Translations under genes and position numbers: made by a program
Part shown: in pieces, positions 15,232 to 28,525 of the stretch
How the letters are laid out: every line of letters starts with the position of its first letter
Numbering within the stretch: position 1 is the stretch's first letter
Notes under the pieces: model-generated
Seen by the model: only the letters and a program-made list of their open reading frames with translations
What the model was told of the DNA's origin: nothing
The model's database searches: none
NCBI GenBank assembly: GCA_003139095.1
Contig: PLHW01000023.1
Location: 1-42,397 of the forward strand
From: Acidobacteriaceae bacterium
Lineage (GTDB): Bacteria; Acidobacteriota; Terriglobia; Terriglobales; Acidobacteriaceae
Length of the DNA stretch: 42,397 bases
Direction of reading: 5' to 3'

Positions 15232-15690
15232 TTGACTTAGCCGCTCGCAAAGCCAGACGATAAACGTAGGACACACAAAGTGCTCGACAGATTTGTTCTT
15301 TGAAAAAATGGGGTTGGAGTCACGGGTCCGTGTGACGGAGGCAAGGGGAACCCCACAAGGGGTTGAAAAATAGGCTCTAACTCCTTATTCCGGAATACTT
15401 TACGTATAAGTATTTATTCCTGAATACTTTGCAGCCAACACCCCGAGGAAACTCTATTTTCCGACCGTTAACTCCAATGTCCTCAAGACTTTGCCTCTAA
15501 GTCTCTATTTCTCAAGACTTTGGCTGGCATAAAATCGCAAAATTGCGGAAAATCGAACCTAACTGCAACTCAGCAAAAGAGTTGTAATAACTAAGTTCAA
15601 GTCTTTATTTTTGAATACTTTGAGAACCAACTTACTCTAAGTCGCTGACTCCATTAGACAGGGGCAGGAGGGGAGAGGGGAGGGGGGGTA
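15232..15690. repeat. Large intergenic element, copy A: phased 17-bp motif array with G-rich tail
   Basis: The head is TTGACTTA (15232), then CACACA--GTGC (15272) and CTTTGA (15298). Five 17-bp motifs of the form TATTYYYSAAKACTTTG follow, at 15386, 15415, 15477, 15506 and 15606; the copies at 15386 and 15477 are degenerate. A near-palindrome CGCAAAATTGCG lies between the last two (about 15537-15548). The element ends in ATTAGACAGGGGCAGG and a purine tract with five G runs up to 15690. Copy B (28044-28525) has the same parts at nearly the same distances. No ORF. It could be a non-coding RNA gene, a protein-binding array or a non-autonomous mobile element. Confidence 0.75.
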
Positions 15691-27295: not shown

Positions 27296-27382
27296 GGAGG
27301 GTGTTACCAGTGGGTACTGGACACGGTTTGCCAAACCGGTGAGCGCTCATCAGCCACTGCGGTTCGACTCCGCCGCCCTCCG
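27296..27382 (+). tRNA. tRNA-like gene with 8+4 bp acceptor/T branch, anticodon GCC
   Basis: GGAGGGTG (27296-27303) pairs with CGCCCTCC (27374-27381) to make an 8-bp acceptor, and GCGG/CCGC around TTCGACT makes a 4-bp T stem stacked on it. The D arm is CCAG-TGGGTA-CTGG. The anticodon arm is CGGT-TTGCCAA-ACCG, giving GCC (Gly codons). An extra arm GTGA-GCGC-TCAT (27339-27350) follows. The discriminator is G (27382); CCA is not encoded. The 8/4 branch, extra arm and G73 match allo-tRNAs with serine identity. The linker after the acceptor (TTA) is longer than usual, so decay is possible. Confidence 0.6.
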
Positions 27383-28043: not shown

Positions 28044-28525
28044 TTGACTTAAGCTCCCGGCTTGATCTCAACTGAATGCAGCGCACACATCGTGCGGTCT
28101 TCGTCAGCTCTTTGACAACATCCTGTTTCCAACGAGGGTTGCGACCTCGCACATAGCGCGTTTCGGTTCCCAGAATGGGCGACGCACCGCGCCATCCCAT
28201 CGCAAGAGCCGAAGCAAATCCTTATTTCTCAATACTTTGCAATTATCTCTTTATTTTTGAATACTTTGCGGGAAATGTCGCAAAATGAGGCCATTTTTGA
28301 CAGCTAACTACCATGCGCTCAAGACTTTGCCGATAAGTCCATATTTCTCAAGACTTTGGCGGGCAGTAAATCGCAAAATTTGCGAAAATCGAACGTAACT
28401 ATAACGAATGAAAAGAATTGTACAAACTAAGTTCAAGCCTATATTTTTGAATACTTTGCGAGTAGACTTATTCCAAACTGCTGATTCCATTAGACAGGGG
28501 CAGGAGGGGGAGGGGGAGGGGGGTA
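28044..28525. repeat. Large intergenic element, copy B: phased 17-bp motif array with G-rich tail
   Basis: TTGACTTA (28044), CACACA--GTGC (28084) and CTTTGA (28110) are at the same offsets as in copy A. The five 17-bp motifs start at 28223, 28252, 28313, 28342 and 28442; motif 3 is degenerate in its first half. A perfect 15-bp palindrome TCGCAAAATTTGCGA lies after motif 4. The element ends with ATTAGACAGGGGCAGG and runs of 4, 5, 5 and 6 G up to 28525. It sits between the decayed gene and xdhC; its tail is about 130 bp before the xdhC start. No ORF. Confidence 0.75.

Follow-up and report, generated by a model that had tools for sequence, protein, structure and literature searches.

Two intergenic elements in a 42,397-nucleotide stretch of an Acidobacteriaceae genome (the window), copy A at 15232-15690 and copy B at 28044-28525, belong to a dispersed family that we read, with a probability of about one half, as noncoding RNA genes under Nus antitermination, with multivalent binding sites in a linear arrangement. 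We infer transcription, antitermination and action in trans from sequence. The full order of parts is a 5' leader, a hairpin, 9-16 nt, a boxA, a variable body, 25-nt units at a 29-nt pitch and a G-rich tail. The boxA, a signal that is read in RNA, precedes the array in the sense orientation, which suggests that the array is transcribed. The sequence-only reading that first described the two copies had a smaller element in view: the boxA and hairpin leader, the copy number, the positional orthology and a genome-wide C/T switch were absent from it.

The common anatomy claimed in that reading was borne out. Copies A and B share a TTGACTTA head (15232..15239 and 28044..28051; all features lie on the plus strand), CACACA-NN-GTGC at offset +40, CTTTGA at +66, five motifs spaced 29, 62, 29 and 100 nt in A and 29, 61, 29 and 100 nt in B, and a G-rich tail 54-55 nt past the last motif. 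The CTTTGA at +66 is now recognised as part of boxA, and the central palindrome that had been proposed is not kept in other copies. In copy A, the head is -35-like and starts a type-1 leader. A weak mini-hairpin with a 3-bp stem, CACACAAAGTGC, occupies a boxB-like position (15272..15283); in the same place other copies have GCAC..GTGC or GCGC..GCGC. The boxA of copy A, GTTCTTTGAAA (15295..15305), is assigned from its sequence, its enrichment and its likeness to rRNA leaders, and the body that follows (15307..15377) is not conserved between copies. Units 1-2 (TAA...AAKAYTTTR at 29-nt pitch, 15378..15431) and units 3-4 (15469..15522) were placed by motif spacing and the array model, unit 5 (TAAGTTCAAG...AATACTTTG, 15592..15622) by motif spacing, and the G-rich tail (15661..15688) by sequence and the family statistic. 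In copy B, a stem scan found a perfect 5-bp hairpin, CGCACACATCGTGCG (28082..28096), 10 nt ahead of boxA GCTCTTTGACA (28107..28117). A variable body (28118..28214), units 1-2 (28215..28268) and 3-4 (28305..28358), the motif of unit 5 (28450..28458, placed by sequence and motif spacing) and the G-rich tail (28497..28523) follow, the paired units and tail being assigned as in copy A. Neither copy yielded an intrinsic terminator in a simple scan. The 29-nt pitch and the 61/62 alternation are not multiples of 3 and do not suit a reading frame conserved across copies, as expected of a protein-coding gene.

The likeness of A and B is not due to chance: a blastn search of the host assembly (5.53 Mb in 75 contigs, the window being contig C35) with copy A as query hit 16 places at E<1e-5, counting A and B themselves. 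Read in one orientation, they have one architecture, with some members degenerate or truncated. Because most loci in this study were fetched with a 29-nt pattern, which makes 29-nt counts on those loci circular, the pitch is tested only by these blastn-found copies, whose search carried no spacing rule. In them 25 of 53 spacings are exactly 29 nt and another is 30. The full 29 / 61-62 / 29 / 98-100 layout is kept in 7 of the 16, and the remaining copies have lost motifs or have altered longer gaps. The host copies are not near-identical (best of 105 pairs 0.83, median 0.64). An exact motif pair at 29-nt pitch matched the host 22 times and its reversed-pattern control not at all. Dozens of copies are present in the host and its relatives. 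With copies many, spacing largely fixed and no match to an IS-derived MITE seen, none of the three outcomes set beforehand as refuting appeared. The idea of selection on geometry stands for the leader and the array; it does not extend to the whole element, because the stretch from boxA to the array varies in length.

The 133 elements contain 369 sense and 19 antisense occurrences of the motif; the fetching pattern required 294 of the sense motifs, and the other 75 are free of it. Elements carry two to six motifs. Of the 24 elements in one genome, G078, 13 have a third motif exactly 41 nt further on, and the other 11 lack a strict third motif. The G-rich tail is present in 88 of 130 elements (three of the 133 have too little downstream sequence to count), compared with 5 of 1034 control windows, and lies mostly about 8-14 or about 35-58 nt past the last motif pair. 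One host copy (L015, about 1664-2719; contig C75 of G000 near 116.8 kb) is interrupted after its fourth motif by what we take to be an IS1595/ISXO2-like transposase gene. Shorter degenerate relatives (CTAAGTCTTTGGTTTATAAAGACTTTAG...CATTAGACCAGGGGAGGGGGG) stand upstream of full copies in L003, L006 and L010, and another stands behind a type-2 leader in L458.

The element begins like a ribosomal RNA operon, as its hairpin and boxA resemble those of the family's rRNA leaders. Its boxA, GYTCTTTGAMA, is close to the gamma-proteobacterial consensus GYTCTTTAANA given in the part of PMC5725501 available, and the order boxB, boxA, boxC is that of rrn leaders in the accessible text of PMC10250234. In the 450-nt regions upstream of 109 elements, strict boxA is present in sense in 48, absent from 61 and never found in antisense, against a control rate of 8 in 912 kb. 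In G078, 16 of 24 elements have a strict boxA and five have near matches identified by eye (L404, L407, L414, L417, L421). Of 64 leaders with boxA, 31 have a hairpin whose stem reaches at least 4 bp and whose end lies 9-16 nt ahead of boxA, compared with a mean of 8.2 in shuffled sequences (200 runs, maximum 15). These hairpins differ widely in sequence (GCACACAATGTGC, GCCTCCCAGGAGGC, TGGGGCATTCCCA, GCAAACAAGTATTTGC). The 33 boxA leaders without such a hairpin include copy A, with its 3 bp. RNAalifold on a MAFFT alignment of eight type-1 leaders gave 0 pairs, because the alignment left the hairpins out of line. The host assembly has no 16S match, and therefore the 16S leaders of relatives were used for comparison. 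In seven family leaders read by eye, a CGCTYAGGCG or similar hairpin stands about 10-12 nt ahead of GGATCTTTGACAA; L379 has GGATCTTTGAAAA with an imperfect hairpin, and the congener G015 has a like hairpin ahead of GGTCTTTGACAA.

Upstream of the hairpin, the 109 host-genus elements fall into three leader types: type 1, CTTGACTTA, in 13 (A and B included); type 2, TTGAC-N8/9-TANNAT-like, in 37; and type 3, CATCACA...ATCACAGA, in 18. The other 41 have no recognised type. In type 1, TTGACTTA lies 64 nt ahead of boxA in four of the seven copies that have both (L001, L009, L011, L012) and 61, 67 and 101 nt ahead in the other three. When we scanned 543 kb of loci for TTGAC-Nk-TANAAT with k from 4 to 25, k was 9 in 35 of 46 matches. 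This 9-bp gap is far from the sigma-70 optimum of 17 and would make the sequence an unusual type of promoter. An AGAARTAG-like sequence is often next in type-2 leaders (for example L152, L157 and L193). Elements of genome G072 (L450-L452) have, by eye, TTGACA followed 15-17 nt on by a -10-like TATA hexamer. In G078, a CRP-like GTGA-N6-TCAC site with at most one mismatch is present in 22 of 24 leaders, where 0.23 is expected per region. A second such site lies exactly 22 nt downstream in 13 leaders, and the first is 95-98 nt from boxA in 17 and 129 nt in two. A simple scan scored no sigma-70-type promoter in copy A or B, which either counts against reading them as RNA genes or points to a non-consensus promoter.

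The repeated unit of 25 nt is TAASTCCTTTnnnTTSAAKAYTTTR, and a linker of about 4 nt within pairs sets the motif every 29 nt. The element had been proposed to be either a structured RNA or a multi-protein binding array. The folded RNA was not supported: RNAalifold found 0 consensus pairs in an alignment of 72 of the 88 listed array references, and folding of whole copies was near the level of shuffles (z=-1.91 for A, +0.54 for B). An alignment of the 3' core gave 14 pairs, one of them with a double change. An AAGTC...GACTT hairpin within each unit looked convincing in copy A and was rejected because many units read TAAC and cannot pair. An array of several binding sites is the better fit.

The fifth base of AAKAYTTTR is set genome by genome. 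All 50 sites of the host have C there, and G078 has T in 47 of its 48 sites. Over 294 sites, the within-genome majority at this base is 0.918, compared with a permuted 0.665 (0.741 at most). Bases three and nine show little or no switching (0.694 against a permuted 0.688, and 0.707 against 0.667). We then compared 28 orthologue pairs, hand-picked from the best 71 locus pairs and with loci shared between pairs, six of which involve mixed genomes. The fifth base differs at 18 of 18 sites in the nine pairs that join a C genome to a T genome and at 0 of 26 sites in the 13 pairs of the same state. All nine C/T pairs involve G008 (6 loci), and the switch thus rests on few lineages. That one base is C in some genomes and T in others, at nearly all of their copies, points to a co-evolving partner that acts in trans, and a partner with a changed preference would be the simplest reading of the switch.

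Sequence comparison also suggests that the array units may be diverged boxA units. A boxA-like sequence inside the array grammar, TAAG-YTCTTTGAMATC-NN-AYTTTG, is present in 11 of 142 elements and in none of 1.16 Mb of control sequence. Ten of the 11 in-frame units are exactly 25 nt long, and in five the boxA core is altered (L116, L139, L192, L196, L203). The array of L450 has the boxA-like unit as its own second unit. In 16 of 17 genomes, 13-mers taken from ordinary units agree with boxA in register better than their shuffles do (in G078, 6.12 against 4.61 of 11). A further step, which we consider unlikely, would be that the transcripts are strings of diverged boxA decoys for the antitermination machinery or a specialised partner and tune rRNA synthesis by titrating a Nus factor. 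NusB is not expanded in carriers: two PF01029 proteins are encoded in 15 of 18 genomes and one in three incomplete MAGs, whether or not elements are present, so these counts do not support a duplicated NusB as the partner that binds the array.

The exact pair pattern is present in 16 of 24 genomes of the genus, 7 of 41 of the family and 5 of 99 of the phylum, with the host counted each time; all five phylum genomes belong to the host family, and the pattern is absent from 90 of 90 genomes outside it. A 60-nt array model, scored on at most 150 candidates per genome, gave 32 matches in the host, matched 22 of 24 genomes of the genus with the host included (53 matches in G007, 51 in G020) and matched 15 of 41 in the family, some by weak partial matches only. 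The model has no match in the congeners G015, which is 100% complete, and G019, indicating that the family is dispensable. In a wider genome collection, 71 of 114 loci were scanned for a G-run within 80 nt, which accompanies at least 18 of 34 acidobacterial and at least 1 of 37 other matches; one Eremiobacterota match among the 71 has none. Carriers of the G-run among the matches listed are Edaphobacter lichenicola, E. aggregans, Bryocella elongata, a Granulicella MAG and strains KBS 89 and KBS 146. We take the other matches in the collection to be chance. In the viral collection IMG/VR, 48 stretches have the pattern, and two (L362, L374) have a run of five or more G; they are perhaps phage, or mis-sorted host DNA.

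G078, which we take to be Ca. Koribacter versatilis Ellin345, is a single contig of 5,650,368 bp with 31 array-model matches. Its first 5 kb presumably encode DnaA and DnaN, and the elements crowd this end of the contig. Of its 24 exact copies, 21 lie in the near half (KS p=1.3e-4), as do 25 of the 31 model matches (KS p=2.4e-4). GC skew at 20 sampled points is not clean, and the placement of the origin therefore rests on dnaA.

Many elements adjoin the same gene in different species, a judgement made mostly on one flank and drawn from the flanking proteins of the best 71 locus pairs. We hand-picked 24 orthologue pairs from these 71, with loci shared between pairs. The orthologue is nearer than any fetched paralogue in 15 pairs (few paralogues were fetched in some genomes), and a paralogue is at least as close in nine. 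That orthologues are mostly closest argues against wholesale gene conversion. As read by our own simple gene caller, the right-hand gene is on the minus strand relative to the element in 55 of 109 elements, on the plus strand in 47 and not called in seven; in G078 it runs opposite to the element in 15 of 24. No theme of function emerged from Pfam matches of 20 of the 24 G078 right-hand genes, four of which had no match, or from eight genes of the window, and cas domains were absent from 28 sampled neighbours. The mixed orientation and the lack of a common neighbour function argue for a stand-alone unit rather than the leader of the next gene.

Several observations concern single neighbourhoods. 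A common family of small right-hand genes is found at L112, L124, L136, L138, L147, L157, L189 and L190; where read, these genes start just downstream of the element and have CGSPA/FCxxH zinc-ribbon-like motifs. An Acido-Lenti-1 RNA (RF01687, 47.9 bits) lies on the minus strand of L125 at 539-584, about 1.9 kb from the element. In the window, ARAGORN calls a tRNA-Gly(gcc) at 27296-27382 (+), about 660 nt upstream of copy B, which Rfam scores as tRNA-Sec at 44.4 bits against a cut-off of 47; it is possibly a SelC-like tRNA or an allo-tRNA with an odd anticodon.

On the reading that we favour, a promoter, which in Koribacter stands behind CRP/FNR-like sites, would start a transcript upstream of the hairpin. 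The leader of this transcript would present a boxB-like hairpin and then a boxA of the kind found in ribosomal RNA leaders. NusB/S10 and their associated factors would bind there and make RNA polymerase processive, and the polymerase could then traverse the untranslated, length-variable spacer without being terminated by Rho. The key product would be the 3' array: unstructured 25-nt units, two to six in number and typically spaced 29 nt within pairs. Each RNA unit would combine a boxA-like 5' half with AAKAYUUUR, and a G-rich tail would come after the array. The array would act in trans, offering a sequence-specific factor a multivalent set of binding sites. Against this reading count the 61 elements without a strict boxA, the boxA leaders that lack the hairpin, the absence of a scored promoter or terminator in A and B, the unexpanded NusB set and the congeners free of arrays. 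The G-run may serve as a 3' end, a quadruplex or a roadblock.

The same features could be explained at the level of DNA, with the units as sites for a chromosome-organising or nucleoid protein and transcription as incidental. The absence of an RNA fold agrees with this, co-switching of one base would suit any factor acting in trans, and the G078 elements cluster near dnaA. IHF recognises the core WATCAA-N4-TTR with a free N4, and the unit motif has a similar CAA/GAA-N4-TTR. However, the N4 of the unit looks conserved as KAYT, although the search pattern fixed most of these four bases, a 29-bp pitch does not make up complete helical turns, and the array shares its strand with boxA and the hairpin, which are RNA signals. 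We regard sites in DNA as rather improbable. We also think it unlikely that the array and G-run form a specialised 3' end, a terminator or roadblock for Nus-modified polymerase that insulates convergent genes. An antiterminated polymerase would require a strong stop, and the G-rich tail is close to the adjacent genes, in many cases at the 3' end of one that is convergent. However, the right-hand gene is codirectional nearly as often, and a terminator needs no promoter and leader of its own. Moreover, the 3' regions of rRNA operons in five family members, whose genomes have 0-2 array matches each, have no array, which indicates that antiterminated transcription there does not use the array as its standard stop; one lone motif lies 1.7 kb past a 5S gene, and a sixth rRNA contig, L447, ends 1.5 kb after 16S.

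Some observations would suit a non-autonomous mobile element, either MITE-like or retro-like with a G-rich 3' tail: the copies are dispersed in tens, many near contig ends, and have mosaic 5' ends; G020 and G008 hold closely similar copies (0.93 over 75 nt); paralogues rival orthologues in the nine pairs noted above; and a 7-nt GACTTAG/CTAAGTC match, seen by eye, lies near the two ends of copy A. An inverted-repeat scan found no terminal inverted repeats, and none longer than these 7 nt was seen by eye. Together with the divergence among host copies, the orthologous positions and the 15 pairs in which the orthologue is closest, this leaves mobility with a low probability. A cis-regulatory 5' leader of the downstream gene, such as a riboswitch or attenuator, seems very unlikely to us. 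Some copies do lie just upstream of sense genes, including the small CGSPA zinc-ribbon-like genes and, at L141 and L211 in two species, a gene that is presumably rlmD-like; but 55 of the 102 called right-hand genes point the opposite way, and the scanned proteins have no common theme.

If the elements are transcribed, they would be a family of noncoding RNA genes with unusually many members per genome, found in a soil lineage, and rRNA-style antitermination would be used outside rRNA, phages and CRISPR. If the units are in addition decoys for Nus factors, dozens of origin-proximal genes switched by a CRP-type signal would form a sponge that acts on transcription elongation and not on mRNA. The genome-wide C/T switch offers an uncommon opportunity to trace the partner through co-variation.

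The sequence-only reading knew of no named family with this layout, and we found none. Rfam has no match to the element, either in the window at the gathering cut-off or in 15 loci at E up to 0.5, and the titles and abstract openings of the openly licensed literature contain no description of such a family. On sequence grounds, we rate this kind of element as probably new. Protein-titrating sRNAs of the CsrB/RsmZ type carry repeated GGA binding motifs in hairpin loops. The element is like them in having several short binding motifs in what would be one noncoding RNA and differs in its linear, unfolded AAKAYUUUR units at a fixed pitch, the absence of hairpin-presented GGA and the tens of genes per genome. 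Acido-1 (RF01686) and Acido-Lenti-1 (RF01687) are, like the proposed product, noncoding RNAs of Acidobacteria, as far as the available part of PMC2864571 describes them; in contrast, the element has no Rfam match and its array does not fold. The TAACTGA direct repeats of Beggiatoaceae also form many short intergenic sets with a proposed regulatory role, but they differ in sequence and lineage, and the opening of the abstract (PMC4679880) does not mention a boxA leader.

The rrn antitermination leader, as covered in the accessible parts of PMC10250234 and PMC5725501, shares with the element the order of hairpin then boxA, a similar boxA and an untranslated product. Unlike rrn, the element would yield a product that is not rRNA, and it has a variable body, a repeat array with a G-run end and array matches that number up to 53 in a genome. 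A boxA leader is also known from CRISPR arrays (Stringer 2020, as cited in the part of PMC7862264 available), which likewise combine a promoter, a boxA and a repeated noncoding array that needs read-through. The element is not itself a CRISPR array, which has near-identical repeats with unique spacers: its two to six 25-nt units are degenerate, the linkers within pairs are 4 nt, there are no unique spacers and the copies are dispersed. By analogy, boxA-led CRISPR arrays would nevertheless be the known system whose logic is nearest to that of the element.
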